Part shown: one piece after another, positions 1,563-56,344 of the stretch
How positions within the stretch are numbered: the stretch's first letter is position 1
Layout: each line of letters opens with the position of its first letter
Assembly: GCA_025765595.1 (NCBI GenBank)
Contig: JAIVFH010000032.1
Coordinates: forward strand, 1 to 64,000
Length of the DNA stretch: 64,000 nt
Reading direction: 5' to 3'
Source of the DNA: Obelidium mucronatum
Taxonomy: Eukaryota > Chytridiomycota > Chytridiomycetes > Chytridiales > Chytriomycetaceae
Position numbers and translations under genes: made by a program
Notes under the pieces: model-generated
What the model was told of the DNA's origin: nothing
What the model saw: the letters and a program-made list of their open reading frames with translations, nothing else
The model's database searches: none

Positions 1563-1882
1563 CGCGTGACTTTTGTCTTGGATTATAAGACTCCGAATTG
1601 CAAAAAAGTGCCTGTACAATTTTGCAAGAAGATTTCAGTCGTTCTATTTCCTGTATATATTCTCTTGTGTTCTGTGTGGCAGGTATCACAGCAAACTGCT
1701 GTTGGCACTTAAACTTCAAACCCCGCTCATAGTATGGACCATCAAATACTCAATTTATCTCGAATCTTGCACCCTTCCGGGGTTTTGCTGCTGTTTATTT
1801 CAAACTCCGCAAATGACCCGAACCGTTTTTGACAGGTTTGTTCTCTAAGTCAAGGACAAATTCCCTTTTGTCCATTATAAAA
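1563..1882 (+). promoter_or_regulatory. Upstream flank of copy A, duplicated upstream of copy B
   Basis: The 873-1562 stretch shows nothing recognisable. From about 1563 to the ATG at 1883 the sequence aligns, with substitutions and small gaps, to the reverse complement of 22783-23100. Shared blocks include AAGATTTCAG/CAGATTTCAG, CTATTTCCTGTATATATTCT, TTGCTGC(T/A)(G/A)TTTATTTCAAACTCC and AATTCCCTTTTGTC followed by TATTATAAAAATG. Conservation runs straight into the start codon with the TATAAAA string only a few bases before ATG, so this is probably the promoter/5' UTR duplicated together with the gene. Confidence 0.7.
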
Positions 1883-3980
1883 ATGAGTTTTGAAAGTGCA
1901 CCTATGCCATCATTAACTGCGCTCTTCGAGGCGAGCATCGCGTTTACTTCTCATATTCTCACATCATCTCGCTCACTTGCTTATTCGCTCATGTTTATGT
2001 ATTTATTCTAACTCCTCTTCTCCTTAAACAGATGTTATTTTTTCTTGCAATGACAGCCGCGCTTCTTCACTTCGGTGTCGTATTTGTCCGGTACCAACTG
2101 GCCCTGGAAGACAAAGTTCTCAAGCTCTCCTTTGAATTGAAGAGTGCCCAGAGTAAGCTCCTCGCCAAAGCCAATACCATCAACTTTTGTTTGTCAAGAG
2201 TCCGAGTCCTTCGAGAAAAGAAGCAGAAGGACAAACAAAACTTTCTGAAGTTGGTTTCCACCCGCCGCAGATTGGGCGAGAAATTGGTGGCTATGACTCG
2301 CAAGTTGATGGTTTTGGCTGGTATGTTAGCAAAGATGGACGGTTTTGTTAATTTTAACATTTTTCATTCTAAGGCAGTGATTTGGGACTGACATTAGCCA
2401 AAATTACAATAAACAGACTGACAAAGTAAGCCCAGCCGGATAGTACTTTGATTGGTGACTAAAAAACCTCACCGCAATTAGAAACGCTTCACAAATGGAT
2501 TCTCGGAACAAAGTTACTGAAGAAGCTCTCATGGTCGCCACAAAGGAAGTCGCAGCATTAAATGAAAATTTACTTGTCGAAATTCAATCTGTGAGTACAA
2601 TTCAGTACTTTGTGCTTGAACGCGACTCAAGTATTTTTCCTTTGTCAGGGGTCCGTATTGAAAAGCAAATTTGTTGACTTCACTGCAAAAAGCCAAGCCG
2701 AAGCGCTTCTTGTCCAAACCAGCCTTCAAAAGAATTCTTCAACCTTGCACTTAAAACTGGACACTCTAAAGATGCGTCTGCGCGGCTACCTAGAATCGTT
2801 GGACCCTTTGGCCTCTGCCCCACTTTTGACGTCACCTGCATTTGCCCTTGCCACTTGTGAACAACTGAAAGAAACTGCATCGCTTCAACAAGTGCTTCCC
2901 TACCCTGACGTCATCTCTCCAGCTGCCTTCGAGGCTATTGAGACCTCCAATGCTTATGTACCATGCCCAGCATTAATGGCCTCCCAACCCATCAAACTGA
3001 ACCTAAATTCAAAGATTTCTTCGCTTCAACAAGAGCTTTCCCAACCCAACGGCATCTCTCCAGCTACGTCTGAGACAACCGATGCCTCCGTTGCTTCTTT
3101 ACCATGCCCTAATTTTGCACCATCGCTGCCCTCTTCTCTGTCTCCAAATGTGCGACAGCTTTCCCGTGAGTTCAGCTGCTTGACAATCTCTCATAAACGC
3201 AGGGTGGCATCCAGGGCTACTCGGTTGGCTGCCAAAACTGCCGCTTCTGATAAGGCTTCAATGATTTCCACTAGCTGTATTCAAATGAATTGTGGGTCTG
3301 TCGCAGGCAGTGATACGGCTTCCTTCCAAGTTCAGCTGCAAACCCTTTCAGGAAAACGCCAGAGTTCGGGGGATATTTCACCTGCCGATGTCCTGGATGA
3401 ACCTCCTGCGCGAAATTTGTTCCGCAAGAGATACACGGAGACGATCATTACGGAAACCGTGAACTCCAACAGCAACATCGCAGCCCCCCCTTCGGTTTGT
3501 TTGAGGAGGAAAATTGCCTATCCGCGCAGTTCAAAGCTCCTTTTGGACGCCAGATCTGGTGTCACACCACTTCCGCTGCAGCCTAATGAAATCTCTGACA
3601 ATGCAACTGAGCCAGACTCTTCCTCAGCTCGTGTTGAACTTATCTACTCTGCCGCCCTTGCTGCCGAAACCGCTCTTGTTGAGTTTTCAGAGCACTTTTC
3701 TCGGACAGGCCATGCATCAGAAATCCATATGCTTGGACTGTCTGGAAATGTTGTTGGCGGAGACCCATTCGCATTTCTTAGCGAATATGGGGTGGTTGCT
3801 TCAGTTTCCACTAACCCCCAATCTTCACTGGAAACTCCTGCCGCTTGGGCACAGTTTGATTCAATGTTTCCGTCACAAGAGCCTCCACTAGGACTCTATG
3901 GTGCGGTTGGTGTCGGAGGTCTTAATGCAAATGAGCAAGAGCAGTACTTCACGATGGAAGAAATCGAAGCCTTACCTTAG
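1883..3980 (+). CDS. Single-pass membrane coiled-coil protein, family copy A (609 aa)
   Basis: Five exons fit in phase: 1883-1930, 2032-2320, 2374-2425, 2482-2590, 2649-3980. The first intron needs a GC-AG boundary (GAG|GCGAGC), which copy B shares. The protein starts MSFESAPMPSL, has one hydrophobic segment at about residues 17-32 (LFFLAMTAALLHFGVVFV), then a basic/heptad-rich coiled coil to about residue 180, then a Ser/Ala/Pro-rich, low-complexity tail of about 400 residues ending in an acidic EEIEALP. I do not recognise a known domain. The paralogue on the minus strand at 21069-22782 has the same exon plan, and a broken third copy lies near 33 kb. A hairpin array starts about 275 bp after the stop. 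Topology and membrane location are inferred. Confidence 0.75.
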
Positions 3981-4254
3981 TGGTAATAGTGATCGATTGT
4001 CGGCCTTTTATTTTCTTCTTTATTTGCCACTCCGAATTCCGAATCAACCATACCTCCCGACCGTGTAACAATCCCTCAAACCAATTCTCCACTGCAAACT
4101 TCTACTTCCACTACTGCCACCGCCAATCCCACCAAAACCCGATACTACTACTGCTGCTGCTGCTATTGGAAACGAGCCCTTTAATACTACTGCTACTGCC
4201 TCTCCTGGAAACAACCCTTAAATTCTTACTACTACTGCCTGCTACCACCCCCAT

Positions 4255-4985
4255 TGCTACTGAAACGAAACCTTCTCCTGCCATATGGATCTCATTAGTC
4301 CGGCAGGAGAAGGGCTCATTGCCACCGCCGCCAAGCCTACTCCCTCACAAAAGTTCCCGCCAGCTCTCAAGCAAGGTCTCTTTAACCCCTTGAAGCTGGC
4401 GCGTTCTTGGACTCCCCGCCGCTACTACTCACTACTGAAAACGAATCCTTCTCCTGCCATATGGATCTCATTAGTCCGGCAGGAGAAGGGTTCATTGCCA
4501 CCGCCGCCTTTCCACCAACACAAAAGTTCCCGCCAGCTCTCAAGCAAGGTCTCTTTAACCCCTTGAAGCTGGCGCGTTCTTGGACTCCCCACCGCTACTA
4601 CACACTACCGCTACTGCTACTGAAAACGAAACCTTCTCCTGCCATATGGATCTCATTAGTCCGGCAGGAGAAGGGCTCATTGCCACCGCCGCCAAGTCTA
4701 CTCCCTCACAAAAGTTCCCGCCAGCTCTCAAGCAAGGTCTCTTTAACCCCTTGAAGCTGGCGCGTTCTTGGACTCCCCGCCGCTACTACTCACTACCGCT
4801 ACTGCTACTGAAAACGAAACCTTCTCCTGCCATATGGATCTCATTAGTCCGGCAGGAGAAGGGCTCATTGCCACCGCCGCCTCTCCACCAACACAAAAGT
4901 TCCCGCCAGCTCTCAAGCAAGGTCTCTTTAACCCCTTGAGGCTGGCGGGTTCTTGGAGTCCCCGCTGCTACTACTGCTACTACTA
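4255..4985 (+). repeat. Hairpin repeat array A (four H1-H2 units)
   Basis: Four near-identical units of about 176-188 bp. Each has hairpin H1 (stem TTCTCCTGCC/GGCAGGAGAA, first at 4273-4311) and hairpin H2 (stem CGCCAGCT/AGCTGGCG, first at 4358-4401). H1 loops carry GGATCTCATTAGTCC and H2 loops carry GGTCTCTTTAACCCC. Further H1 copies start at 4449, 4634 and 4822. Spacers hold CTACTG/CCGCCG triplet runs and the words CACAAAAGTTCCCG and CTTGGACTCC. Overlapping open frames in this block are a by-product of the repeats. Region 3981-4254 upstream is C/T-rich with CTACTGCTGCTG runs and looks like a degenerate start of the array. Confidence 0.9.
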
Positions 4986-5216
4986 CTAAGACTACGGATA
5001 CTGCTATTGCTGCCACGAGAAATTAAGTTTTGATGGAAATTACGCTGAAGCAAAAGAATAGAATAGATTGGAGACTTGTTTGAAATAAATGAACCATAGC
5101 TTAGATAAAATTTTAGTTTGAGATTCTTGCTTTCTATTTAAAGATTTGTTGTGTGCAAGAGCTTTTTTTTCTATGTAGCATCTCATAGCTGGTGTTTTAT
5201 TTCTATAAACAGAATC

Positions 5217-7691
5217 TTAGACACAAGAAAGTCCAGTTGCCGTCTCATTCGCACCAGAAGCCAAATACCAAGCACAGTCCTTATCTTCAAACCCAAATCC
5301 AGGATAACAGTAGTAATCAAACGGAACATTATCCGTATTCGGGTTCAACGCATACCAAGAAGTAAACGAAACCCCCACAACCGCCATAAACGAAACAATC
5401 AATGAAACAATCCCCGCGCTACCATCGAAAGCAGCTCCCATAACATACAAGTACTTTTGGTAAAACTCTCTGTTTTTGAGAAACAGGTATTGCGTGATGA
5501 AGGTCAAAATCAAGGGCACGATAATAACGACTTGGTAGGCGCCTGCGTTACCCGTGGTGAAGATGATGGCAAAGTTGATGTAGTGCCAGTACTTTGACTT
5601 GTAGATGTACTTGTTGGCTAACCAAGGGAGCAATGGGGCGACGGCGCCAATAAGGAAGCACCAGAGAAGGCCTTCGTAGAGGGATCCGATACCAAAGAAT
5701 CTTTGGGGACCAATGGCTCCCCAGATTCCTCCGGCAGAGTAGAAGGTTTGGTGGCCGTTGTATCTCCATTCTGGCTTCTTCAGCAAATCGTTGGTGTTGA
5801 ACATCATGTAGAAGGCAGCGGCAGTGGAAACAATGGCGTTAAGGAAAGTTCCATAAAACTGAGCGAAAACCATGGCGTATGGTGGAATGTGCAAGTATTG
5901 ACCAAGCTTCAAGTCCTGGGTAAGAGTCAAAGCCTGCACCAAAGAGTTGGTACCCCAAGACTTGAAAGCCATAACCGCAACAGTTTGTCCTGGAATCATC
6001 AATCCGATAACGAATTCAGTCAACACGTTCAAGTAGAGGTAGAAACCACTGATTGCTGGAACAACTCCAAATGGCAAGATGAAGATCAAGCAAATGAACA
6101 AGTTGAAAAAGATGGCCCACCATGGCATGTTGAATGGGGTGACTAGAGAAACAAGAATGGCACCAGCAGCGGCAACCGCCAAGAACGCGAGGTACGCCCA
6201 GTCTGGGACTTCTGGGTAGGCTTCCATCATCTTGACGTGTTTGTCCAACCCATCGACTTCGTCTCGGACTTGTCTGAAGGCGTTCATGGATTGACGGTAA
6301 ATGTCCTTTCCATACCAGAGGGCAACGTGGGAAAGAGCGGCAGTGATGGTGGCGAAAGAGGCACCGTAGACCAAAGCAAAGTGGGCAGTCAGGCGAACAG
6401 GAGCAACATCATTGTAAGCAGTCAAGTTAAGGTCGTAGTTGGCACTCTTGTTGTAAAAGTAAGCAGGTCTGACACGGGATCCAGCCTTTTTGGTACCGTT
6501 CGGGTTACCAACAAACAAGTGAGCTGTGTTTGCGTATGGGTTGTGTGTAACTGGATCTTCACTAATGATCTCGTTGTTACCCCAAACTATCAATGAAATG
6601 ATAAAAGTTTTTGTGAGCTTTTATGTAAGAAAACAATGAAGAGCACCATACCGTTATTGGCCCAGAGCAATGGAGTAATCAAGTACTGGAAAAAGGCAGT
6701 TCCACCCAAGAACATGATCATGGCCCAGAATGGCGACGTAAAGACATACGAACCGAGGAAAGTCCAATCAAAAGTCAACCCAAAGACACCCATTCCGTTA
6801 ACAGCCGATCCAGCAACCGCATTGAACTTTGTCAAAACCCCAGATTTACCGTTTCCGCGTCCAGCAATCAAACAGGCAAAAGAAATAGCCTGGAGAACTG
6901 GGGCAAAGTATTGAGGGATCCACATGTACGCAAACATGGCAATGAAAGCAACCCAGAAAAAGCGGTAACGGGTCATGCTGTACTTTTGGACCCCTTCAAA
7001 CTCAGTAAGGTCGGTCTTGTGGAAGGAAGTGAACAAGGCAATTGTAGAAAGAGTGGATGGCCACCACATGGCTGTCGGGCGGACCAAGAAACGGCGAGTC
7101 AAACCAGAGAGACCATAACCAAGGAATTGCGTAACAATAACGAATCCAAGAGCTTGGAAGAAGGAAATATCGGTGTTTCCCATCAAGTCTGGCATCATCT
7201 GGGAAACAACGTTTTCAATACCGTATGGTTGACCTCCACAAGATGCAACAATGTAGATGAGAACGTGCTCTTTCATAGAGAATGGACCTGGGTTGAGGAA
7301 TCCAGATGGGAGGATGGAAGCCATGATGATACCGAGAGGGTAAGTCAAGATGAGTGCCACGTTGGCTCCAACACTGAAGGCGTTGGTACGGAAAGACAAG
7401 GCAGTGTTGGCAAAGGATAGAAGGACAACCTGTTTCGAATAGCCTGATATTAGATCGAACGCCTTCTACAAACAAACTGTTCAAACTTACCCAAAGGGTT
7501 CCAAGAAAGACAGCTCGGAAAGTGAAAGCTGGAGTGCTAGGGTCATCGGATTGAGGCACAATGAAGTCGATTCTCTCCATGACATCTCTAATGTCTTCCA
7601 CTTCAGTGTCTTCTTCGAGGTCTGGGTGGGCCTCGACATAGTCGTGGAGTTGCTTCTCTTTCTCGGCAATGTCCTGCTCAACAGTGGTCAT
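5217..7691 (-). CDS. OPT-family oligopeptide transporter (782 aa)
   Basis: Exons 7491-7691, 6652-7429 and 5217-6586 join in phase at GT-AG introns. The product is the length expected for the OPT family, which moves small peptides or metal chelates across the plasma or vacuolar membrane with protons. The acidic N-terminus (EEDTEVEDIRDVMERI) precedes many hydrophobic segments. Family marks seen: NPGPFSMKEH after the second membrane segment, SFACLIAGRGNG, GLTFDWTFLG, LTQDLKLGQYLHIPP and GQTVAVMAFKSWG. The start at 7691 is the first ATG of an open first exon. The gene is intact, unlike some neighbours, and is transcribed away from the gene at 8408. Confidence 0.95.
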
Positions 7692-8407
7692 GTTTTTTGG
7701 AAGAGCTGAATGAAAGAGAAAAGGATGAACAGTGCAGGGTTCTTATGTCCTTTTTCGTGGTGATGCCAAAGTGGCGTTCTCATTTGAAAGCGAGTCAAGC
7801 CCAACAAACGCCCTCGCAAATTTTCACCAATTTTTCAGCTGGAGGCGTTGCGCAAGCCTTTGAAAACCCACTTGTGCCCATCTGGGTATACTGTCCCTCC
7901 CCTCAGCGAAAGTAGAGCTATGAAAAACAGACAAATCAGTTCAATTTCTGAAGAAGCGGGCAAGAAGATGGGGTTGTTTTTGGTTGATTGGTCGGGCTTT
8001 TTTGTTGGCCACTCATCCAACGAAATTGATTAAAACATTGCAGCTCCACAATTTGCAATTTAGGACGCACGCCACTTGAAAAAAACCGGATCACTGCTTG
8101 GGTTGTGGCGGCCAGGTGGCGGCCCTATCAATCATGCTGTTTTGTAGTGCACCTTCCAACTTTGTGAGCTAAACAAGGATCATCATTGTTTTTGAGATGC
8201 AGTGAGTGATGGATTCTAGTGAGACTATGACGGGATATGAAACAAAACCATGGTCTGTCTCCGTACACGTTTAAAAATAAGAATTTCGAAGTTTGACAAA
8301 AAAACAGATGATTTCCGTCCAGACTTGTCCGAAGTGATTTTCAGCATCGCGCAGAGACGAAGACGCGCCAATCCCATGCTTCATCCATTGTTGACGGCAA
8401 GAAGAAG
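7692..8407. promoter_or_regulatory. Divergent intergenic region between OPT and RA/PH/kinase-like gene
   Basis: About 716 bp separates two genes transcribed in opposite directions, so it must hold both promoters. No convincing TATA box or operator repeat was found. Short open frames here have no family signature and are left out. Confidence 0.5.
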
Positions 8408-11400
8408 ATGGAGCCTGGCGCAAACAGCAACAGCATCAGCAACAACAGCGAGGGCGGCGGCGGCAAGGCGGAGCGGCGGCTGTCGATCCCGGCAGTGTTC
8501 CGCGGGATGGTCGGTGGCGACGCGGAGCCAGCGGCGCCGAGACTCCGGCTGGTCGAGGAGCCGGACGCGCTCGACGACGCCAAGAGCGGGAAGCCGATGG
8601 GGTTCGAGGACGACGACGCCACGTGGGAGCGCTTCCAGAAGAGCGCCGTGGCCGCCGCGAAGCTGCAGCAGAGCTCGAAGCGCAGCGCGTCGATCCACCG
8701 CCCCGCCAGCGACGCCGCGCCCGCGAGCGGCGGCGGCGGCGGCGGCCCGAGCAGCGGCGACTCGTTCTTTTCGCGCGCGAAAAAGTCGGTCGCCGCAAAG
8801 GACGCAAACTGGCTGCCCGTCACGTCCATCTGGACGCAGAAGAAGGGCCTGTCGCGCGAGGAGGTGCAGTTGACCCTGTTTGCAACGGCCGATATTCTGG
8901 CATCGTCAAACTCCCCCACAAGCTTCACGGCCTTCAAACGCCAACAAGCTGCAAACGACGACTCGTCAAACTACAAGGCCCTGCTGATTGCGGACACACC
9001 CACTCCCTTGCGTCTCTTTGAAATTGCCGATCGCGTCGCAAGTGGTGGCTTGATTGATCCCGAACTGGACTTTCCTGTCATTGGATGGTTCTTGAAACTT
9101 GTTGCTGCGTGTCCAAACATGTGTGTGGATGAATCTGAACTAGATGATGCCACGATCAATAACGTTAATGGAGGCGCTCAAAAAGGAAATAATAATAATA
9201 ATAATAACGATGATGTCCAAGCTCCTGGAATGAATAGAATCGTGGGTTCTGGTGCTACCGATCTTTTACACACGAAAATGATTGAAGAGGATGATGTTCT
9301 TGCTTTGACTGTTGCAAAAGTTGAAATGGATTCTGTATCTGCTGCTGTTGCTTCTTTTGGTTTGACTCCAAACAATAATCCAGCCGTTTTGAATGATGCC
9401 TTGAAAGGAAATGTTACAATTTCAGTTGTTCAAGATTTAGTTTCTGCTTCTACTGATGAAGGGTCACTTGCTCGTATGTACTAGTATATCGTTGAATGAT
9501 ACCGCCGAAGGCGGTGGATTTCGTATACCGCCGAAGGCGGTGAATTTCTTTTTTTTTTGTACTATACCCATCTGCAAATACCGCCAAAGGCGGTGGATTT
9601 CTTTTTCGTGTCTTTTTTTTACTATAATTATATGCACACCATCAATCACACGCAATTCAAACCATACCCATGATATTATCAGCAACGATATACAAGTTAC
9701 ACGTCAAAGACGAGTACGGCGGTTTATACGTCATCCCATCAACTCCAACAATGACAATCAACGAAATCAAACAAGAAGCACTACGTCGATATGGAATCAT
9801 TGATTTCATCAATCGCCATGACATTTTCGGCATTGATCAAAACCATCGTAAGTTCCCAATCTCACAAGAAAAAAACACATCCCACAAACAATAATAACAT
9901 GCGAGTTTAAATAGAGGACGTTGTACTTGATTATTTGAACACATCCGTCGGCTCTCTTGCGCGTTTAGCAAATGCACACATGCAGTTCCACCTTCGTCGA
10001 AAGAAGCCCGTCTCTTGGAGTATCCCCGTGTTTGTCCATGAGAAAAACACGTATCGGCAAATTGCTGTAAACGCTTTTACTACTGTCGAACAAGTTGTGG
10101 CGATTATTGTGGCATTGGAAAACATTGATAAATCAGTTTCCGATAATTATGCCATTTACAACCAAAAAGGTTCGTTGAAAATATTTGATGCTTCCTTTGT
10201 CTTATGAAAGGAAATACAGAAAGGATCCTACCTCATTCCACCTTTGATCCATGGGCCAAAACCCAAGAATATGCATTCACGACAATTTCAACACCATTCC
10301 CCAAAGTGGAGGAACAACCACTCCCTGAAATCCGACCGAAACCTCTTGAAGCGCCACAAGAGCCAACCTGTCGTCCTTCGCTGAAATCCAAAACCCTCGA
10401 TACTGACAACACTAGTTCAGGAGCTGCTGCTGTGGGCGGAAATACCACCTCTCGGCAATTGGGATCTGTCGCTGGAGGAAACGAGACGCCACGTGCGCCT
10501 GGTCGATCAACGTTCAAGTCACGTTTGTTTAGTGGATTCAGTGGGCTCAAAAGCAACAAGGATGAATCGAATGCTGACGCTGCAGAGGAAGAAGATGAGA
10601 TCCCGGGATACCAAAGGAGCTCTTCTATCATGGTGATTACCTAAAAAAAATTTTACTTTTTGGAATGCCAACCAGATTTTTATCTTGGGCGATAGCCTCC
10701 AGTCGCTCGACCTGCTTCTGCTAAGTCAACTGTATCTGCTTCTGCGTTGCCAGGTGTATCTGCTGCGGCGGCAGCTGCTGCTGCTGCTGGCGGTGACTTT
10801 TTTGTCACACGTTTCTATTATGGAAACATGGCGTATACTACATTGAGGTTGCAAATGAACGCGACCGCGCATACTGCTGTAGTCTCCATCATGGATAAAC
10901 TCTTGATCAAGGAGTCTGCTGATGAATACAGTATTTTCGTCAACAGAAAATCAGTCGAAGGTGTGATTTCCCTACTCTTTTAAACAGCTACTTGTTTTTT
11001 GTTGTTTTTTTTCTCTATTAATTTCTCTCTGCTTTCGATTTTTTTAACACAAATTCCGTTGTTTCAGGCAAAGTCGAGCTCGAAAAAACCCAAGATTTAT
11101 ATTCAATCCACAAAACCTTGATTGACGGAGAACTATTTCTATTCCAACGAAAAACGAAAATCGAATCCCATTTACGTCCAGACAACTCTGGATCCCCCCA
11201 TCAAACCTTTGCGAACCTCCGCAGCGAAACGCCAAGTGCAGATACAAGCGTAATTCAGCAGGAAGAAAACGCGTCAAATGGCGGTGGCGCGTCAGATAAA
11301 GGCGGAATCCACGGTTTAGGAATCCCCAAGATCATCTGTTTGGATCGAGACGACGACGACGATGACAATGATGGCGGAGCACGCGGGAACCATCGACCTA

Positions 11401-13049: not shown

Positions 13050-13079
13050 ATCAATAAATAATAATTTCTTCTCGAATCA

Positions 13080-19339: not shown

Positions 19340-20800
19340 AATCAGACCCCCTCCTCTCGCCAGGATTAATGAGATCCTATACTGGCGAGAGTCGGTTCGA
19401 CAGTTGGTTTCGGTGGTGGTGGCAGCAGCGATAACAGAAGCAGACCCCTCCTCTCGCCAGGATTAATGAGGTCCTTAATGGCGAGAATCGGTTCGAAAGC
19501 TATGATAGTTGGACCCAAGTAGCTCCACGCCCTCCAGGGGTTAAAGAGACCTGACTGGAGAGCGGAGCACCACTTTTGATGAGCGGTTAGGAGGGTTGGT
19601 GGCGGCAGTAGCGACAGAACTCCCGTCCTCTCGCCAGGATTAATGAGGTCCTTTATGGCGAGAGTCAGTTCGAAAGCTGTGATAGTTGGACCCAAGTAAT
19701 CCCCCGCCCGCCAGGGGTTAAAAGAGACCTGGCTGGAGTGCGGGGACACCACTTTCAATGAAGCTGATTCGAGACTTTCCAGTGGTAGGGGCTGCAATGG
19801 CGACAGAACAGACCCCTCCTCTCGCCAGGATTAATGAGATCCTATATTGGCGAGAGTCGGTTCGACAGTTTGCAGCAGCGATAACAGGAGCAGACCCCTC
19901 CTCCCGCCAGGATTAATGAGGTCCTTAGTGGCGAGAGTCGGTTCGAAAATCGGGAGAGTTGGACCCAAGTAGTCACCCGCCCGCCAGGGGTTAAAGAGAC
20001 CTGACTGGAGAGCGGGGCACCACTTTTGATGAGAGAGTTAAGAGGGTTACCCGGTGGTTGTGGCGGCAGCAGTGACAGACCCCTTCTCTCGCCAGGATTG
20101 ATGAGATCCTTTATGGCGAGAGTCGGTTCGAGCGGAGTGACTGGTGGTGGATGGATCCAGTAGCCGTGGCAGTGAAAGTCCCCGTACTCTCGCCAGGATT
20201 AATGAGGTCCTTGATGGCAAGAGTCGGTTCGAGGATAGGTGGCTCCAGTGGCGGCAGCAGTGACAGAGAGCGACCCCACCTCTCGCCCTTCTCTCGCCAG
20301 GATTAATGAGGTCCTTTAATGGCAAGAGTCGGTTCCAAGGCTGCAATGTTGGACCCAAGTAGTTTCCCGCTCTTCCGGGGTTAAAGAGACCTGACGGAAG
20401 AGCGGGAACACTGCTTTTGATGTGGAGTTCGATGGTTTTTCCCCAATAGTGGCGGCGGCGGCGGCGGCGGCAGAAACAGACCCCTTCTCCCGCCAGGATT
20501 AATGAGGTCCTTTAACGGCGAGAGTCGGTTCCAAGGCTTCAATGTTGGACCCAAGTAGTTTCCCGCTCTTCCGGGGTTAAAGAGACCTGACGGAAGAGCG
20601 GGAACACTGCTTTTGTTGATGGAGTTCGATGGTTTTTCCCCAATAGTGGCGGCGGCGGCGGCGACAGAAACAGACCCCTTCTCTCGCCAGGATTAATGAG
20701 GTCCTTTAATGGCGAGAGTCGGTTCCAAAGAAGTGGCAGTTGGACCCAAGTAAGTCCCCACCATCCAGGGGTTAAAGAGACCTTGCTGGAGTGCGGGAAC
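19340..20800 (-). repeat. Hairpin repeat array B (about ten H1 and six H2 elements)
   Basis: Read on the plus strand, H1 is CTCTCGCC-AGGATTAATGAGGTCCTTTAAT-GGCGAGAG, at about 19354, 19452, 19627, 19817, 19902, 20086, 20187, 20291, 20486 and 20681. H2 elements follow near 19545, 19710, 19985, 20370, 20570 and 20765; two have a perfect 12-bp stem CCCGCTCTTCCG/CGGAAGAGCGGG. Loops are GGATTAATGAGGTCC and GGGTTAAAGAGACC, the reverse complements of the loops in array A. Spacers contain TTGGACCCAAGTA and GGCGGC/CAGCAG triplet runs. It lies directly 3' of gene copy B on the same sense strand. Confidence 0.9.
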
Positions 20801-20880
20801 AGACATGTTGTTGAAGGAGTGTGGCTGATGAGAAAGATGAGCTTTATGCGTGCCAGGCATTTCGCTGATGGAGGCCTTGA

Positions 20881-21045
20881 AGTGGTGTTGTAGTTTCGAC
20901 CCTGACGACTGGTGGGATTCACGGGACCCCTGGAACACCTCCCCATAACTAAGCTGCATTTTTGTAGTTCTTTTCCGGCGATTGGTGAGATTCACGGGAC
21001 CTCTTGGAACAACTCCCCACAACAATAAAAAAAAAGCCCCCATTC
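20881..21045 (-). repeat. Third motif block between array B and gene copy B
   Basis: Two copies of GATTGGTGAGATTCACGGGACC-type sequence (first as GACTGGTGGGATTCACGGGACC) followed by CCTGGAACACC or TCTTGGAACAAC and CTCCCCA. The same two-copy block with only scattered changes recurs at 32660-32800 beside copy C, so it travels with the gene-plus-array unit. Confidence 0.8.
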
Positions 21046-21068
21046 CCCACCCGCGTTTCAACTCTCCT

Positions 21069-22782
21069 TTAAAATGACAGCTCCTGCACATCCCCACCAT
21101 GAGATGAACGAGCGGCCGGGGCGATCCCGCACACGCCCGCGAGAAGATCGAGCATACTCTCCTGCTCGACTGGAACAGGTACCGCGACCGGGACAACGGG
21201 GGCGACTGGCACAGTGGGGGCAACTGGAACACGTCGAGCTGCTGGCAGTTTTGGAGCAACCGACGCTGCAGGAACGTCTGGCGGAAGTGATAACGGTACA
21301 ACCGGTCGAACTCGCCTCACGAATATCTGCCTCTGGGCCTTGACAGGTGCCGTAGCCATTTCCACGTCCTCGTCCATTAAAGCGACAGGCTCTTCCACTG
21401 CCATCGGATCCGAGTCAACAATAGGATTGGACGTGGCAGAGGCCGTGGTTGGCTCCGCGGCTGTAGCAACTTGCTTAGACGGACCACCACCGCCAAGCAA
21501 TTCAGTCAGTGCGAGGACGACGGGATCATTGGCCAAGAGGACAGTCTCCGTTTCACTTCTAGAACTGACTTGGTTCAAAGCCAGAACTGGGACGGTGGTA
21601 TTTCCAATAGCAACTGGTGCCACGACTGCGATTCCTTCGAAGCGGCGAACCAGCTCCTTCACTGGCACTTCCGCAACGGCAACACCAGGTAGTGGGAAAG
21701 TAAACCCTGCAGCCGGTACAAGTGGGATAGGAGCCTGGGCAGCCGCCGTTTCCGAAGAATAACCAGATTGCCATGACAAACTTCTCCAGTTGAATGTTGA
21801 CAGCCGTGACTTTGGCCATGAGTGCAAAAGTCGCGTGCTGACCTTCACACCTTTGCGTGATTACACAGGCTACAAAGTCGTCCAGTTGTTTTTTCACCTG
21901 TTCACCCTGATAAAGTAAAAACATTTAAACTCAGAATCCGTCACAAAAAACAATATGATGCAAACAAAGTCAACTCACATGCCCCAACGCCGCTTCAAGT
22001 CTCTGCGAGAGGTCGGCGATAGTGAAATCTTTAGCGGCGAGCACTTCCGCGGCATTTGCGAACTCGCTGGAAGTTGAAAGTCCAGTTAGTATAAAACCAA
22101 GCGTTTCGGAGAAAGAAACTGGACTGCACGTACTTTGCAAGACGATGCTCGTTTCCAGTTGCCAGCTGAACTTGGCGCTGGAGTGTGCGGCAGTGGTCTG
22201 TATAAATTCGTGACCATCAATAAAACATGAAAGAATAAAACGAAAAACATGTCAAGTACCATTCGACGCTGCCAACTGCATATTTTGCAGTGAGACATTA
22301 TTCGCCAAATCGGAGCGGCTGGCCTCCAAAGACTCCACTTGACGGTGAAGACGGCGCGTTTCATGCTGAGCCGCATGATTGGCGTTTCCCGATGTCCTCA
22401 ATCGGGCGACCTCCGCCTTGAAGTAATCAAGCTGCACCGATAAATCAGTGCACTCTGCCTTCAAGGCAGATTCAGAATCCAGAACCTTACGGAGCTGGAT
22501 GAAGGCAAAGCAAACCGCAAAAGCGGCTGCGAGCATAATAAACACCTGCACAGAGGCAGGGAGAATCTGTATGTCAAATAGAACCAGGCGTTAGAAATAA
22601 AGAAAATAAATAAGAGAGGACGCGAATGATGGAGGATAAGATATGTATAATGCGAATATGTGAGAGAACATGGGTGAATGTGTGTTCGAATGAGTGTGGG
22701 TGCGGGGGTAGCGCCTAAACGCGATACTCGCCTCATTAAGCACAATTACTGACGATGGCATGACTGCGCTTTCGAAATTCAT
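21069..22782 (-). CDS. Single-pass membrane coiled-coil protein, family copy B (frame broken by one base)
   Basis: Exon 1 is 22732-22782 (MNFESAVMPSSVIVLNE), intron 1 (22567-22731) has a GC-AG boundary as in copy A, exon 2 starts 22566 with a hydrophobic segment (VFIMLAAAFAVCFAFIQL) followed by a coiled coil rich in heptads. Small exons near 22200-22135 and 22065-21980 match the pattern of copy A. The last exon (from about 21920) encodes GEQVKKQLDDFVACVITQRC and then loses frame near 21765, where the plus strand reads CCAGATTGCC against CCAGTTGCC in copy C; dropping one base gives a continuous Val/Pro/Ala-rich tail ending at 21069. Function unknown; predicted membrane protein of about 450 residues. 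Confidence 0.65.
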
Positions 22783-23150
22783 TTTTATAATAGACAAAAG
22801 GGAATTTGCCCTGGACTTGGAGAAAACGGACCTGTCAAACTTTCGGGACATTTACCGGAGTTTGAAATAAATAGCAGCAAACCCCCAAAAGGGGTGCAAG
22901 GATCGAGATATGAGTGTTTGATAGTCCAGACTATTAGTGGGGTCCAAAGTTAAAATGCCAACAGCCGTTTGCTGATCCCTGCCACATAGAATATATAAGA
23001 ATATATACAGGAAATAGATCGACTGAAATCTGCATGCAAATTGCACATGAAGTTTGTCGTAATTCTGTATAGATTTCAAGACTTTCAGGAGGAGAGTCAC
23101 ATAATAGGGGCCCCTAGTACCAGGATTCAGAGATGCGTAATTAACCAATA
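22783..23150 (-). promoter_or_regulatory. Upstream flank of copy B, homologous to that of copy A
   Basis: Reverse complement aligns with 1563-1882 up to the start codon, including CTATTTCCTGTATATATTCT, GGTTTGCTGCTATTTATTT and TCTATTATAAAAATG. The block is inverted relative to copy A. Conservation fades beyond about 23100. Confidence 0.7.
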
Positions 23151-25697: not shown

Positions 25698-27374
25698 ATG
25701 AACGTTCAACATCGGCCAGCACCGTGTTTGAGGTAAAACTGCAGACAAGGTCGGAAATGAACCTCATCACACAAATAGATGTCGGCGACAAAAGAAGCGA
25801 TGTGATCAAGTCAAGCCAGCATGCGAGAGGTGTGTGTTGATGGGCAAAGAGCTAGAGTGCCAGTATCCAGTACCAAGAAAAAGAACACCAAGAACCACAA
25901 GAACCAACACCACAACAACAAGTACAATTCCAGAATCCACACGGGTCGGTACTTAGTCATGTCATCACAGCTTTAGAGACACCTCTGGATGACTTTGAAG
26001 ACCGCGACTGGACCGTGCAGGACCCCGACTTGATGGCCTCCCAAGCCGACTGGCTGCTCATGTTTACGTTCCTGACGACGAACGAGCGCTCTGGCCAGCT
26101 GCGGCTCTCTGTCGACGTGCAGCGGTTTCCTGGCAACGTTTTTCACGCAACCGGCGGCGCTGCGCCTAACGTTCTGCGCGTTTCGCGGCGCACTTTGCGT
26201 CGCCGGCCGTCGCAGGAGGGCGTCGCGCTGTCGTACTACGTGCGCGCCAGGAAGGCGGTGCTGCGCGCGCCGCCGACGTACCAGACGGCGCAGGCGTTCT
26301 GCTGGATCTTCGGCTTTTCGTACTGGAAGGGCCAGCCGGCCGTCGGCGCGCCGTTCTTCAAGGCCGCGCTGGCGCTGGCCGCTGCGCTGCGGCTGGCCGT
26401 CGACCCGCACGCCCTGGACTTGTCAGAGAGCGAGAAGGAAGAGCGGCGCCGCCTGTACTGGAACCTGTACTACGCGGTCAAGATTGCCCAGTCGACGTCT
26501 AACGACTTTGACGCTGTCAACCTGTCCGTCGACAAGGTGAATCCGCCGCGTGCAATCACTGAGCCTTATGTGGCACACATTTCCTTTGACTCGTTCCCCT
26601 CAGTTTGCGCCGTCATTGACTTGATTGTCGTGATTCGTCGGCATTACTTTACGGGTCCGGGCACTTTGTCCAATGTTTTAGATAACCCAGGCTGGCAGAG
26701 TGTTGCCCAACGGTTGCGGGAGGTGCATGGCAAGGTAAATCTCCCTCAGTCATCAATGCCGTGATTCCTGCATTTACATCTTTCAACTGCAGGTCCCAGT
26801 ACATTACATTCTGGTGCCCGAATCTGCTGAAATGATCACAGACGCCGACCACTCGCGCTTCATCAATCAACTGTACGCCATCCCACGTCACGAAATCAGG
26901 TTTCTTCTCGGAATGAACCTCAACATACTCTCTTCAATATCACTCCTCCACCGATCCAAACTCTTTCTCAGCGGTTTAAACTCTTGCACCCCAACATCAT
27001 TGGATCCAGACTCCAAAAAAATCATATCCACTGCCATCACCCAAGCACTCCAGTCTGCACACAGAATCGCCTGTCTCATCTCCTTCCTCCTTGAAATGAT
27101 AAGTGACCCCACACAAAAGACGTACTTTGGTTCCACGCTCTTTGAATGGAACACTTTCCTGACAAACCCAATCTTTGAAGCAATCATTGTTTTCTGGTTT
27201 ATTCAATGCCGAATGAATCCGGAATGGTGGGGGTTTGTCGAGAGGGGCAATTGTCCACGCGATGTTGTGAGGCAACGTATTTTGGATATGATTTCGGTTC
27301 TGGAGAATGCGGCGAGTTATCAGAAAGAGTTATTGGCGCCTCATGTCGTTTGTGTTAAAGCAATGTTGGAATGA
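25698..27374 (+). CDS. Zn2Cys6 transcription factor with fungal middle-homology domain (507 aa)
   Basis: Exons 25698-25732, 25779-25921, 25971-26734 and 26793-27374 join in phase. The first intron splits the zinc cluster: PCLRC at the end of exon 1 and RRQKKRC...PACERC...ELEC in exon 2 give CX2CX6CX6CX2CX8C, the binuclear cluster that binds CGG triplets. The rest matches the fungal_trans regulatory region (LALAAALRLAVDPHALDLSESEKEERRRLYW). Start at 25698 is chosen because it supplies the first two cysteines. Exon 3 up to about 26530 is strikingly GC-rich, then composition drops. Divergent placement suggests, without proof, control of the reductase. Confidence 0.88.
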
Positions 27375-27412
27375 GATGGATGGTGTTGCTGGTGAGTTGT
27401 AGATTCTGCACC

Positions 27413-27440
27413 TTTTTTTTTTTTTTTTTTTTTTTTTTTT
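27413..27440 (+). repeat. Poly-T tract
   Basis: Twenty-eight T in a row, then G and eight more T, in the 401-bp gap between the transcription factor and the subtilase gene. The rest of 27375-27775 shows nothing recognisable except an A/T-rich stretch at 27710-27775 just before the next ATG. Confidence 0.95.
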
Positions 27441-27775
27441 GTTTTTTTTGGGTTTTCATCACCCATCAACTCACATATTACTCCAAATCACAAGGGCTCA
27501 CAAGGGCAACAAGAAAACAATAGTGACACAGCAGCTGGAAGCTCGGCATGAAGGTGGTTTCCCTTGGAGGAAACGATGAAATCACTGAACAACAAGAACC
27601 AATGACAAAGGAGCCGTGGTGCTTTTTGGGACTTTTGGGATTGGAAGTGGCAGGCGGAGTTCGATGGCGCGCTTCCAAAGAAGAAGACTGGCGGCTCTTT
27701 TGGCTGCTGAATTAATTAATAATTTAAAATAAAGAATAAATAAATTAAAATAAAGTAAAATAAACTTGACCAAAA

Positions 27776-29429
27776 ATGCTCATCCTTTCTGCTGCTTTGC
27801 TGGCGGCACTTGTTGCCAACGCACAGCTTCTCCTTCCCGACCTGTCACTGTCGCAAGCACTTCGCTCAGAGTACGAAGCAAACGCGCAAATTGCCCCTCT
27901 CTATACCGCGCCACCCGGAAAGAGAATCCTTGGTTCTTACATTGCTGTGCTTGACGATGACTCAGAAGTATCAACTCTAAGCACGGCTTCTCTCTCAGCA
28001 AAAGCAATTGTCGAGGTACGCAAGCATTTAAATCCGGGTGGGTTCTATGCTTAAAACTCAAAAATAACAACAGCCCTTTGGTTTCTCTGACGCCCTCCTC
28101 CGAGCCGCAGCCACCGCTCCACCCTCAGCCACAAAGTTCCCCCGTGGTTTCATCCTCAAGAACATTTCCCGCCGCGATTTGGCCAAAGTACGAGCGATGG
28201 CTGGGTTCAAGTGGATTGAAGAAGACCAACTTGTGTCAACAGCTGTTCCAGTTCCTGGCTTTATCCCAGAGGAAGGCGAGGTTGTGCAAAACAGTCCTCC
28301 TTGGGGTCTTGCGCGAGTGTCGCATGAATTGAAACCTGACTTTGCACGAGGTAAGTTTGTGTGTGTGTATGCGAGGTGTCTTTGATGACGCGACTTGGAT
28401 TTTAAAACGGATGCACGAAAAATTCAGTTGACGACTACGTTTACTTCAAGAACGATGGTTTGGGTGTCGATGTATATGTTGTTGATACTGGAATCAATAT
28501 CAATCATGTGGAGTTTGAAGGCCGTGCTGTGTGGGGACAAACGATTCCCGAAGGAGTAAGCATGCCATTTAATTTTCCTGCACGTACATACAAAAAGCAG
28601 GTTACTCACCTTTTTTTTTCTAGGACAAGGACGAAGACGGAAACGGTCATGGAACTCACGTTGCCGGAACAATCTCGGGAAAGACTTTTGGCGTCGCCAA
28701 AAAGGCAAATGCTATTGCCGTCAAAGTGTTGCGGTCGAATGGATCTGGATCCATGTCGGATGTGTTGAAGGGAATCGAATGGGTTGCACGGGACCATATT
28801 GAAAAGAACCAAAAGGCGGCCGGTGGAGTATCCACGTACAAACGCACTGGAAACAAGAAATCTGTTGCCAACATGTCTCTTGGTGGTGGGAAGTCGGATG
28901 CACTTGACCGCGGTGTTGATGGTGCAGTTTCTGTTGGAGTTCACTTTGCGGTAGCTGCAGGGAATGATAACCAAGATGCATGCAAGTACTCTCCGGCTGC
29001 CTCTAGAAAGGCGATTACAGTTCTTGCTACTACTATTGATGATGACCGTGCGACTTTCTCCAACTGGGGAAAGTGTGTTGACATTGGAGCTCCTGGACAC
29101 TTGATTCTTTCCACTTGGATTGGATCCCCGACTGCCAACAACACCATCTCTGGAACGTCTATGGCGTCTCCACATGTGGCGGGAGTCGTTGCTGCCTATG
29201 TTTCTCGCGTTGACAGTGGTTGGGATACTGCGACGCCAGAGCAGTTGAAACAGAGATTGTTCGACGTCAGTGTCAAGAATGTTATTAAGGTAATGTATTT
29301 GATTGTGCACATTGGAAATGCGCTTATATTCTTGCGATTCAGGGTATGCCAAAGCGCCAGGGAACCAAAAACCGCCTCTTGTACAACAGTGCTCCAGCGC
29401 ATGAACATGAGAGTGGAGAGAGTCTTTGA
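27776..29429 (+). CDS. Cerevisin-type S8 subtilisin-like serine protease (465 aa)
   Basis: Exons 27776-28015, 28074-28350, 28428-28555, 28624-29289, 29343-29429, all in phase. A signal peptide ([15 protein letters not shown]) is followed by an I9-type propeptide (GSYIAVL...; [10 protein letters not shown]) and the S8 catalytic domain. The triad is visible: Asp in VYVVDTGIN, His in [11 protein letters not shown], Ser in [11 protein letters not shown], with the oxyanion Asn in VAAGNDN. This is the proteinase K/cerevisin group, secreted or vacuolar. It ends 87 bp before the GUF1 start codon. Frame intact. Confidence 0.95.
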
Positions 29430-29516
29430 TTAAATTGGCTGATAATACCTGATTCGATATTACCCAAAAATAACTCTGATAATTTATTCATGCTTAATTC
29501 TCTCTTTTTTTTTTTA

Positions 29517-31738
29517 ATGTTGTCAAAATGCAACAAACACCTCAGCAGGATACTGCGACCGCAATGTCGATTGACCTGCAAGCGACTCTCGAGCACAAAT
29601 TTATCAAATGAACTTATTACCGATTTCGCATCATTTACACCCGACAAGATCCGAAACTTCAGCATGTAACGTTGATGTGTGTTTGACTAGTTCGTTGGGT
29701 TAACTCCAAGTGCATCTTTTCAGCATCGCCCACATTGACCATGGCAAAAGTACTCTTGCTGATCGTCTCTTGGAACTCACTGGAACAATCAAGAAAGTAG
29801 AAAAGGGGCAACAAGAAGGCCGAGTCCTAGACAAACTGAAAGTAGAAAAGGAACGAGGAATAACAGTCAAAGCCCAGACCGCATCCATGTTTTACAAAGA
29901 TCCAGAAACTCAAGAGACATATCTCTTGAACCTGATTGACACACCCTGGACACGTGGACTTTAGCTACGAAGTATCCCGATCCCTCAGCGCCTGTCAAGG
30001 AACCTTGCTCCTGATTGACGCAAGTCAAGGAATCCAAGCTCAAACTGTAGCCAACTTTTTCCTTGCCTTCAGCGAGAACCTGGCGGTAGTTCCTGTCTTG
30101 AACAAGGTGGATCTACCAGGCTCAGACCCACAAAAAGTTCTCAAACAAATCGAATCCACTTTCGAACTCGATACCTCTCCAGGCAGTGTTCTTGAAATCA
30201 GTGCCAAGACGGGACTGGGTGTCCCCGCTGTTCTACGGCAGATTGTCGCAGACATCCCGCCGCCCCAGCTTGGCTCCCCTACAGATGAATTCAAGGCGCT
30301 TTTGTTTGATACATGGTATGATGCGTACGTGGGCGTCGTCTGTCTGGTTGCAGTTCACAGTGGGACTTTGAGAACGGGGTCAACGAATCACATCGCATCA
30401 CACGAAACTAACGTATGAAGTAACCCAGCTGGGGATCATGCACCCAGAGCAGACCCCGACGCCGTGTCTTACGGTCGGGCAAGTCGGGTACCTCCATCTG
30501 GGCATGAAAACAACGCGCGACGCACACATTGGAGATACCTTTTACGCTGGGAACTCTGTGAATCCGCCGACACCGTTTCCAGGGTTCAAGCCGGCAAAGT
30601 CGATGGTGTTTGCGGGAGCGTATCCGATGGATGCGAGTGAGTTTCCGAAAATGCAGGAGGCGATTGATCGTTTGACGTTGAATGATGCGAGTGTGGCTGT
30701 GGCGAGAGAGACGTCGAGTGCGCTTGGGCAAGGATTTAGATTGGGGTTTTTGGGGACGTTGCATATGGATGTGTTTCGGCAGCGATTAGAGGAGGAGCAT
30801 GATTCGACGGTTATTAATACGGCGCCGACCGTTAGTTTCCAAGTCGCGTATAAAAACGAAAGTAAAGTAACGGGGCTGGAAGTAGATCGTGCTAGTGGGA
30901 GGAAAATGAAGGTGATTCGGAATCCTGCAGAGTTTCCTGAGCCAGATGAGTTGGCGAATGTTGAAGCGTTTTACGAACCTATGGTTGTGGGGACTTTGAT
31001 TTGTCCTCTGGAGTATGTTGGGTCTTTGATGGAGTTGTGCGGGGTATGTTTGGTTTTCTTCTTTGCTCTGTTGTTTTTCTTTTCTGCATTTACTTATATT
31101 GGAATTTAACTTTTTTAGAGCCATCGTGGAGAGCAACTAGAATATACTTGTATCGACGACTCCCGTGTGCTGTTGAAGGTATATTGCTTTATCTTCGACG
31201 AAACCTCATTCAAACACCATTAATCATAAAAACAGTATAAACTACCAATGTCTGAAATCTTGATTGACTTTTATGACCAATTGAAATCACGAACCCAAGG
31301 ATACGCTACTTTTGACTATGAAGAAGCCGGGTTATCAAGAATCAGACCTTGTCAAAGTAAACCTCCTGCTCAACGGAAAACCCGTCGACGCTCTCGCAAC
31401 AATTGTGCATCGCAATGCAAGTGCGAATGTTGCCAAAGAATGGGTAAAGCGGTTAAAGGCCGTCATGGATCGCCAGCTCGTTGAGATTGTGATTCAAGCT
31501 TCGATTAATGGGAAAGTTGTGAGCAGAGAGACTATTAGCGCGTTGCGGAAAGATGTGACTGCCAAGCTGTATGGAGGAGATATCACGCGGAAAATGAAGT
31601 TGCTAGGATAAACAAAAAGCTGGAAAGAAGAGAATGAAAGCTGTAGCGGGGGGCATCCAATTACCTCAAGAAGCTTTTTTGAGTTTGATTAATGGTGGAA
31701 AGGACAGTGGAGGAGGGAATCCCGTCAGCAAGAAATAA
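29517..31738 (+). CDS. GUF1: Mitochondrial translation GTPase GUF1/LepA (675 aa after discounting four extra bases)
   Basis: Exons 29517-29665, 29724-31043, 31119-31178, 31236-31738. A basic, acid-poor N-terminus (mitochondrial presequence) leads into [22 protein letters not shown] (G1), the [17 protein letters not shown]3 box, NKVDLPGSD (G4) and SAKTGLG (G5). The C-terminus has the LepA-specific [19 protein letters not shown] and [19 protein letters not shown]1 is the elongation factor 4 that back-translocates stalled mitochondrial ribosomes. Four +1 breaks are seen, each in a short run of G or C: near 29947 (ACACCCTGG), 30377 (ACGGGGTC), 31328 (GCCGGGTT) and 31608 (CTAGGAT). Restoring frame extends the gene from the apparent stop at 31611 to 31738, matching the family's C-terminus. 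Confidence 0.9.
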
Positions 31739-32369
31739 AAAAAGGGCGTTGAAACAATTATAATGAACTGCTGAAGTCACTGGAATCAAGCATCCTTCCG
31801 TCCATGGAACAGCCTCCATTCATTCAATCTTGATATTTGAACAGTCCGCCTGGCGAGTCCACCCAGTCTGTGTTTTTGAGCGGCCTTGGCTTGAGTCGCT
31901 TTGACGCAGCTTGACCACACGTCGTCCGAAGCATATAACCGCCGAACGCCGACGCGATTTGACTGTGTGTGCGCATGACGCCGCAGGAAAGAGATTTAAG
32001 TTCCTAAATCATTCTCCTTTTCCAAAAAAAAAATAAGGTTGGTATATGGGTGGCTGCCAAGGGCCGCAACCGCGACATGAAACCCGTTGATTTTGACTTT
32101 CTCAGCCATGAAGCATTTGTAAATGAAAAATTCAGTCAAACTGTGTGGGGATAAGCCTTCACGCATTTTTCTTGCCTCTCTCATTGACTCCCAAGCACTT
32201 TGAAAAAGCCTTGCCATTACTCCAGACAACTCTGGTCGAATCGCATTTTGGAAAAACATATGACGCGTTTATTCCTTCTTGAAATAGTTATGGTAGTACT
32301 ATATTAGCACTGCAGGGTTCAAAAGACCTGCCCATAAAGGTTTCCCGGTGGTGGTGGCCGCAGCAGCAG
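31739..32369. other. Intergenic with one unassigned short frame
   Basis: A minus-strand frame at 31996-32259 (87 codons) has no recognised family or splice context. Nothing else stands out before the decayed hairpin array. Confidence 0.4.
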
Positions 32370-32600
32370 GTCCAATATGGCGAGAATTGGTTTGAAAGTA
32401 GTGCTGATAGTGGCAGAAGCACGATAAGAAGAAAAGACACCTCCTCTCGCCATGATTAATGAGGTCCTATAATGGCGAAAGTCGGTTCGAAATGAATGTT
32501 TGAGTTGTGGTCAAGCAGTAATAGAATATCCAAGTAAGTCCCCACCCTCCAGGGGTTAAAAAACCTGACTAGAGAGCGGAAGCAGACTTTCGTGATGCAT
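32370..32600 (-). repeat. Decayed hairpin array C
   Basis: One H1 (CTCTCGCC-ATGATTAATGAGGTCC-...GGCGAAAG, about 32453-32483) and one H2 (CCCTCCAGGGGTTAAAAAACCTGACTAGAG, about 32545-32578) match array B with mismatches; a partial GGCGAGAA TTGG remnant lies near 32378. The H1 stem has one mispair and the H2 loop has lost GAGA, so the array is degraded together with the adjacent gene fragment. Confidence 0.8.
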
Positions 32601-33330
32601 GATAAAGCTGAACTGTTTGTGTGTACTTTGACTTGCAACACATTTTTCGGCCTCTGGACTTCTATTCTTGCGATTGGTGAGATTCACGGGACCCCTGGAA
32701 CACCTCCCAATAATTAAGGCTTTGCCCATTTTGTAGTTTTTTCCTGGCGATTGGTGAGATTCGTGGGACCTCTTGGAACAACTCCCCACAACAATAAAAG
32801 ACCCAGGAGAAAGTTTCAATGCCGTTATAGCTGAAATTCCTTCAAACTGGGGAACCAGCTCCTTCCCCGGCGCTTCTGCAATGGCAACAGTATGCACTGG
32901 GAAAATAAAACCTGCGGCAAGTAGAAGTGTGGTGGGAACCAAGGCAGACGCCGCTTCCAAAATTTCTCCAACTCCCGGCACTTCCGCAACGGCAACAGCA
33001 GGTAGTGGGAAAATAAACCCTGCAGCCAGTACAAGTGGGACAGGAGCCTGGGCAGACGCCGTCTCCAAAGAATAACCAGTTGCCATGACAAACTTCTCCA
33101 GTTGAATATTGACAGCCGTGACTTTGGCTATGAGCGCGAAAGTCACGTGCTGGCCTTTGCATCGCTGTGTGATCACACAGGCTACAAAGTCGTCCAGTTG
33201 TTTTTTCACCTGTGTACCCTGATAAAGTAAAATGGCATAAGTGCGCTTTCAAAATTCTTTTTTATAATAGACAAAAGGGAATTGCAATAAATCAGTGCGC
33301 TCTGTCTTCAAAGCAGATTCAGCTCTTGTG
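32601..33330 (-). pseudogene. Copy C of the membrane coiled-coil gene, rearranged remnant
   Basis: A minus-strand frame from 33209 down reads KKQLDDFVACVITQRCKGQH, then runs in one frame into a Pro/Ala/Val tail (GYSLETASAQAPVPLV) matching copy B after its frame break. Immediately upstream (33235-33285) sits the 5' flank and exon-1 homology with the start codon changed to AAG, and beyond it (33285-33335) an exon-2 fragment. Exons 2-4 are missing between. The tail shows an internal tandem duplication (LAAGFIFPL repeated) and runs into the third-motif block at 32660-32800. No intact product is expected. Confidence 0.8.
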
Positions 33331-56300: not shown

Positions 56301-56344
56301 AGATATCAACGGCAATATTTTGAATTATATAAACTATCAACTGT

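Follow-up and report, generated by a model that had tools for sequence, protein, structure and literature searches.

In engineered MS2 and boxB arrays, artificial tandem hairpins with one kind of loop offer many binding sites per messenger RNA (mRNA), and paired hairpins also occur, in dispersed form, in a zoosporic fungus as the mitochondrial double-hairpin elements of Allomyces. This article describes arrays of hairpins located downstream of the members of one gene family in Obelidium mucronatum (Chytridiomycota, Chytriomycetaceae), starting from the first 64 kb of contig C32 (the window; other contigs are named in the same way) of an assembly of 48.3 Mb and 694 contigs. These arrays are tandem hairpins like those of the MS2 and boxB constructs, but they are natural and consist of two hairpin types plus a leader motif; unlike the Allomyces elements they are nuclear and bound to one gene family, with up to 22 hairpins of the two types behind one gene.

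Two natural systems of the mRNA 3' untranslated region (3'-UTR) are comparable. In Trypanosoma brucei, the 16-mer/CFB2 system of VSG mRNAs is reported to rest on one 3'-UTR element that is carried by otherwise highly variant genes and through which the whole family is controlled (PMC8051951), as is likewise proposed for Obelidium; the VSG element is a short linear sequence, in contrast to the hairpin array, and there is no sequence relation between them. The Roquin/NUFIP2 tandem stem-loops of the ICOS and Ox40 3'-UTRs likewise comprise several stem-loops that are reported to act together (PMC5775257), but they are few and their loops are unrelated, while in Obelidium up to 22 hairpins of two alternating types occur. 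Among the papers listed in literature searches, none described the gene family or the gene-array layout.

The reading preferred here, to which a probability of about 0.58 is assigned, is that the arrays constitute a multivalent docking platform in the 3'-UTR which would co-regulate a diversified, lineage-specific family of membrane proteins. The arrays would form structured RNA at the mRNA 3' end of this one protein family, one or two RNA-binding proteins would recognise the bulge and loop of the hairpins and load many times onto each mRNA, and this docking would jointly determine how stable the family's mRNAs are, where they are localised or how they are translated, regardless of their coding part. 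Protein binding to the array is a prediction, and the effect of the bound factor might be stabilisation, localisation or repression. The near-invariant loops, the maintained pairing, the preferred spacing, the sense orientation and the sharing of arrays across divergent paralogues agree better with an RNA-binding factor acting in trans than with a DNA element, a source of small RNAs or a mobile element.

The association of arrays and genes was addressed across the whole assembly. The exact 15-base core of motif 1 (GGAYCTCATTARTCC) occurs 75 times in the 48.3 Mb (pattern search; 0 and 0 matches for the reversed control), which is not a chance result, distributed over 12 arrays on eight contigs: C26 (2), C32 (copies A and B of the window), C102 (2), C132, C138, C181 (2), C238 and C298. 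Copy C of the window provides a 13th, decayed array with one mismatch in its motif-1 core. Each of the 13 arrays stands 3' of the gene or of a gene fragment and in its sense direction (C238 also has one small inverted gene piece). A full-length gene body precedes nine of them (C32A, C32B, C26a, C26b, C102, C132, C138, C181a and C181b), the gene models of C26a, C26b, C181a and C32B having interrupted frames, and fragments precede the arrays of window copy C, C238 and C298 and the second array of C102. A combined motif-1/motif-2 pattern gave 136 matches versus 108 for the control, and the 100 of these 136 that were listed were all inside arrays. The 11-mer loop core GGWYCTCWTTA, which the preliminary description of this locus had put forward for genome searches, turned out to be unspecific (153 matches versus 206 for its reversed control).

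The promoter-to-intron piece of C138 (636 bp) found 12 places in a DNA search, nine of them longer than 350 bp, all on array contigs; isolated pieces of the shared promoter, of 61-105 bp, lie about 30 kb from full copies (C181:1506-1566, C138:44878-44938 and C132:69331-69435). Hairpin-free gene copies occur at about 20 kb on C102 and about 51 kb on C26, with no hairpin in the fetched 2.9 and 3.7 kb; both are truncated to the 5' part, reaching among the matches listed residue ~335 of 771, and are probably alleles of each other. The annotated protein P0005 at the C26 site joins the first part of the gene family to a different sequence and is possibly a fused gene model over the truncated copy. 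The only stray hairpin piece found was one half-hairpin on C239. The earlier proposal that gene and array form one unit, duplicating and decaying together, is borne out by the position of all 13 arrays, and the pattern and BLAST searches for genes without arrays or arrays without genes brought no refutation, the hairpin-free genes being truncated and the stray hairpin a single half.

The cores of motifs 2 and 3, as defined here, are AGGTCTCTTTAACCC and GGTCCCGTGAATCTCACCA. In motif 1 the outer stem has 8-9 bp and the bulge on its 5' side 4-5 nucleotides (nt), and a short upper stem carries a loop of 7-9 nt. In motif 2 about 11 bp form the outer stem, often extended by weaker pairs, the 5' bulge has 3 nt, and an upper stem of 3 bp carries the loop CUCUUUA. 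The usual order is the stop codon, 67-101 nt of sequence, up to three copies of motif 3 and then mostly alternating motif-2 and motif-1 hairpins; motif 3 comes first in eight of the nine larger arrays, the exception being array A. With up to two mismatches allowed, there are 86 motif-1, 66 motif-2 and 26 motif-3 cores in the fetched units, and counts drop steeply with mismatches despite the core-based collection (75 exact, six with one and five with two for motif 1; 61, two and three for motif 2). Models of the whole hairpins matched 96 times for motif 1 (R1; E<=0.1, 11 sources) and 76 times for motif 2 (R2), totals in which stretches of C26 appear twice and a few matches are weak or on the opposite strand. 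In the arrays other than A, the motif-1 stem is fairly conserved as well, so that the contrast between loop and stem is clearest between A and the remaining arrays. Excluding arrays A and C238, whose spacings differ (84-87 and 89-101 nt in A), 38 of 55 motif-2 cores with a motif-1 core next to them have it at 77-80 nt, while the distance from motif 1 to the next motif 2 falls in this range in one of 49 cases (median 112 nt); this preference suggests that a motif 2-motif 1 pair is the module.

Pairing was analysed in aligned subsets picked for diversity (45 of the 86 motif-1 and 40 of the 66 motif-2 elements), the outer motif-2 helix being drawn partly by eye with G-U allowed. Standard pairs make up 96.3% of 623 cells in motif 1 and 84.1% of 935 cells in motif 2, and at most 54.9% and 51.4%, respectively, when the partner strand is slid. 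For motif 2 the covariation score is 0.211, compared to 0.150 in shuffles (0 of 500 as high) and at most 0.119 in slid versions, with 40 double-change cells versus 13.4 in shuffles. In motif 1, columns 14-47 and 15-46 changed on both sides between array A and the other arrays. Covariation proper is moderate. The folding z-scores were -5.8, -3.9, -2.8 and -6.1 for hairpins of the window and -1.9 and -2.8 for those of C138.

The strand on which the structure is maintained can be read from single changes, since in the sense RNA a stem transition produces either G-U, which pairs, or A-C, which does not, and these roles are swapped on the opposite strand. The aligned subsets contain G-U and A-C cells in ratios of 46:8 (motif 1) and 111:18 (motif 2), besides 15 cells with other mismatches in motif 1. 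Counted by base pair, G-U is ahead in 21 and A-C in five (p=0.0025), and in the core stems in 17 versus two (p=0.0007). The spacers, C-rich on the sense strand, themselves show a bias (530:306 C/T to A/G differences); over this transition bias, the G-U excess in the subsets stays significant, the G-C-type pairs of motif 1 giving p=0.006 and its A-U-type pairs 2e-5, with p=0.009 and 2e-10, respectively, for the motif-2 core. The bias towards G-U favours, short of proof, selection on the sense RNA rather than on DNA. A structure conserved on the sense strand 3' of the stop codon, the mark of a structured cis-regulatory RNA of the 3'-UTR, was thus found for motifs 1 and 2, with the weaknesses given below. 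At gathering score, Rfam 15 recognised one transfer RNA (tRNA) and nothing else in the whole window, and searches at E up to 5 with the C138 array region and the window A array gave three weak matches each, all below gathering.

Gene and array are predicted to share one transcript, from the sequence between and behind them. The stop codon is followed by the first motif-3 core after 84 nt in C102, C138 and C132, 101 nt in C181b and 67 nt in copy B, and neither AATAAA nor ATTAAA occurs between stop and motif 3 in the five copies examined there; in array A, without motif 3, the first hairpin begins about 285 nt past the stop. In seven of nine arrays examined, AATAAA or ATTAAA, which resemble polyadenylation (poly(A)) signals, stand 159-172 nt past the start of the last core. 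Just 3' of the arrays on C26, C102, C132 and C181 lies a short ATG frame (MASEKDHRDLKVKSS... in several copies), read here as a remnant or a small gene and as duplicating together with the gene-array unit.

Several observations weigh against a folded, regulatory 3'-UTR. The elements were gathered via their core, so that its near-invariance is partly built in. One slid version of motif 2 gives 34 double-change cells versus the 40 observed, and its pair counts are not significant (nine double-change pairs, reached by 45 of 500 shuffles; pair types, 253 of 500), while motif 1 has four double-change cells in three pairs (38 of 500 shuffles as high) and slid versions reach up to eight cells. Other mismatches fill 131 of the 935 motif-2 cells, mainly in the outer helix. 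In the complete sets the strand bias is weaker over the spacer bias: the core stems of motif 1 have 42:17 G-U to A-C (p=0.11 and 0.06) and those of motif 2 have 60:10, with p=0.08 for G-C-type pairs, and the A-U-type signal of motif 2 (30:0, p=8e-14) comes mostly from one base pair. All these p-values treat related cells as independent. Motif 3 folds no better than its shuffles (z +1.07), and its G-U count of 51:0 stems from constant columns. As to the 3' end, six of the seven arrays positive for a poly(A)-like signal are related sequences, AATAAA at about 160 nt is missing in C138 (385 nt) and in copy B of the window (none within 900 nt), and the short ATG frame behind some arrays means that the AATAAA may belong to the next gene.

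Among the other explanations, the one that survives best, although it is unlikely, considers the arrays as palindromes at the DNA level, whose stems would be kept paired by quasi-palindrome correction or as cruciforms or recombination sites, with no function in RNA. Template switching can yield compensatory changes without selection, the arrays do expand and contract (C138 contains near-identical units 191 bp apart), and in the complete motif-1 set the excess of G-U over the spacer bias is not significant. However, a correction process at the DNA level has no reason to favour G-U above A-C in the sense strand, as is the case in both motifs and also in the A-U-type pairs of the core stems (15:2 and 22:0); the near-invariant cores and the single orientation of all 13 arrays relative to the gene also speak against this explanation.

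It is less probable still that the hairpins are precursors of small RNAs, either a microRNA (miRNA) or a hairpin RNA cluster, with the gene as host transcript. Their clustering, long stems, small bulges and common orientation would suit such a function, as would the fairly conserved motif-1 stems outside array A, but the loop is the best conserved part of these hairpins, which is not the case in most miRNA precursors, and no Rfam miRNA family was found at gathering score. Reading the heptaloops as anticodon-like was dropped because no tRNA-like fold surrounds them; GGTTCGA on the antisense strand, considered as a tRNA-like internal promoter, is absent from the array A hairpins examined.

The genes that precede the arrays have constant ends and a variable body. 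Intact five-exon models were obtained for copy A of the window (601 residues), C102 (778), C138 (752), C132 (771) and C181b (809), and the spliced C138 member agrees at every residue with the record BDR26DRAFT_940774 [Obelidium mucronatum]. At the N-terminus, exon 1 is similar among the members, and a stretch of strong hydrophobicity (Kyte-Doolittle maxima of 2.3-3.0 at residues 11-17) probably anchors the protein in the membrane; a coil likely follows, on the basis of the preliminary description and of a crude heptad count made here, and then a long low-complexity region and a C-terminal motif such as DMTEEDLDDLF, DMTPEEVLALF or YFTMEEIEAL. No Pfam family was recognised at E<=0.1 in the C132 and C181b models or in the last exon of copy A, and no relatives outside Obelidium were found in single-sequence and five-row profile searches (8000 candidates scored and five matches each, all from Obelidium).

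The family is under purifying, partly relaxed selection: the ratio of nonsynonymous to synonymous substitution rates (dN/dS) is 0.44-0.51 for whole genes (five pairs with dS <1) and 0.27-0.69 for segments, and dN is below dS in all whole-gene pairs and segments computed. Since exon 2 is often less alike between paralogues than the promoter and intron 1, positive selection on the coiled-coil exon had been suspected, and was not borne out by dN/dS. Paralogues share the promoter and similar arrays even where their coding exons are only about 50% alike; in C181a and C181b, for example, 280 nt of promoter and exon 1 are 100% identical and exon 2 is 50% identical, and the annotated C26 protein P0003 combines an N-terminal half of the C181b type with a C-terminal half of the C102 type. 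An exchange of ends between old paralogues explains the alike ends better than positive selection.

These proteins could themselves be the ligands of the arrays, the family's own product binding the hairpins via an arginine-rich patch in an autogenous control, a possibility about as improbable as the small-RNA one. Arginine-rich motifs classically recognise bulged hairpins, and four very acidic members (net charge -66 to -86) each hold one patch of +7 or +8 in 20 residues, reached by 3, 8, 14 and 28 of 5000 shuffles. Three of these four patches are homologous, however, that of copy A is not significant (479 of 5000 shuffles), and a basic patch may instead be a nuclear localisation signal. An equally doubtful variant is a self-assembling messenger ribonucleoprotein, in which the arginine-rich patch of the nascent protein, membrane-anchored through its N-terminus, would bind the many hairpins of its own mRNA and of those of its paralogues. 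If it were true, the array would tether and concentrate the family's mRNAs at one membrane site, as a natural counterpart of an MS2-tagged mRNA that is encoded together with its own coat protein.

The flanks of copy A occur again on C238 (about 5 kb at 95-99%, and the neighbouring genes are the same), next to a broken, partly inverted gene with 2+2 hairpins versus 4+4 in copy A, and the flank of copy C occurs again on C298 (95.6% over about 3.5 kb, a translation-factor gene included), next to a fuller gene fragment; for the immediate flanks of copy B, no second copy turned up in the comparison made. From this similarity, we infer that C238 and C298 are alternative haplotypes of the window loci, between which the gene-array locus seems to change its structure. 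C102/C26 and C132/C138/C181 may also be alleles, and the 13 arrays may accordingly represent about five positions. The duplicated flanks point to an origin of the copies by tandem and segmental duplication. That gene and array are a mobile element, as the preliminary description had allowed, is the least probable explanation: copies are many, occur in both orientations and differ in gene and array content between the apparent haplotypes, but no Pfam domain, of a transposition gene or otherwise, was recognised in three members, and the copies lie in duplicated stretches whose flanks are homologous (by blastn of units and flanks, no search for terminal repeats or target-site duplications being made). 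The subtelomeric location raised there as a question did not gain support either, as the 51 matches to three TTAGGG units lie on other contigs and none on the eight array contigs, which are fragments, so that this result speaks for lack of support and does not disprove the location. Neither telomere repeats nor positive selection, as looked for in a VSG-like subtelomeric family of variant genes, were thus seen here.

In the window, the three copies and their arrays are located where they were initially placed. Copy A is on the plus strand, with its promoter region at 1595-1882 (indicated by its blastn match to copy B and by the inverted repeats I1 and I2) and five exons in the spliced model: exon 1 (MSFESAPMPSLTALFE; 1883-1930), similar across the family and followed by a GC-AG intron, exon 2 (2032-2320), encoding the hydrophobic segment (Kyte-Doolittle maximum 2.31 at residue 17) and then the likely coil, exon 3 (2398-2425), exon 4 (2482-2590), of 109 nt as in the other spliced members, and exon 5 (2649-3980), which runs to the stop codon. 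Array A (4265-4964), defined by core patterns and model matches, alternates four motif-1 and four motif-2 hairpins and has no motif 3; an AATAAA at 5084-5089, 164 nt past the start of the last motif-2 core, would act as its poly(A) signal.

Copies B and C are on the minus strand. The gene of copy B (21069-22782) has a frame interrupted in the last exon, and its promoter region (22783-23065) resembles that of copy A by about 80%; the claim of a shared upstream flank holds, promoter and exon 1 aligning over 359 columns with 79.7% identity (blastn, A 1595-1946). Downstream of it are a motif-3 block (20895-21030; cores at 20910-20928 and 20983-21001) and array B (19343-20811), with ten motif-1 and six motif-2 cores within two mismatches by core patterns and model matches. 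The motif-3 block is common to B and C, as previously noted. Copy C had been described as a gene with an array; its gene fragment (32831-33283; a fuller counterpart is on C298), motif-3 block (32660-32799, two copies), motif-2 hairpin (32523-32594; R2, 55.6 bits) and motif-1 hairpin (32433-32490; R1, 74.7 bits; one mismatch in the core) were recovered, but since only these pieces are left, its array is better considered a remnant.

Elsewhere in the window, a fragment of a Kyakuja-Dileera-Zisupton (KDZ) transposase was detected at 37845-38561 on the minus strand (Pfam PF18758, E 3.4e-16). The segment 56227-56385 contains a tRNA-Met gene on the minus strand (56227-56301) and, 45 bp away, an A40 run on the plus strand, and a NOP2-like frame matches an Obelidium protein at 100% identity, with 96% of the query aligned.

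The hairpins described here look like a new RNA family (no Rfam match) on a new protein family (no Pfam match and no relative found outside one chytrid species). With constant ends and a variable body, this gene family keeps common control elements as its proteins diverge. If docking to the 3'-UTR is true, the arrays would form a natural multivalent platform of RNA of unusual size, and the effect of repeat number on the fate of an mRNA would become a question that can be asked in Obelidium.

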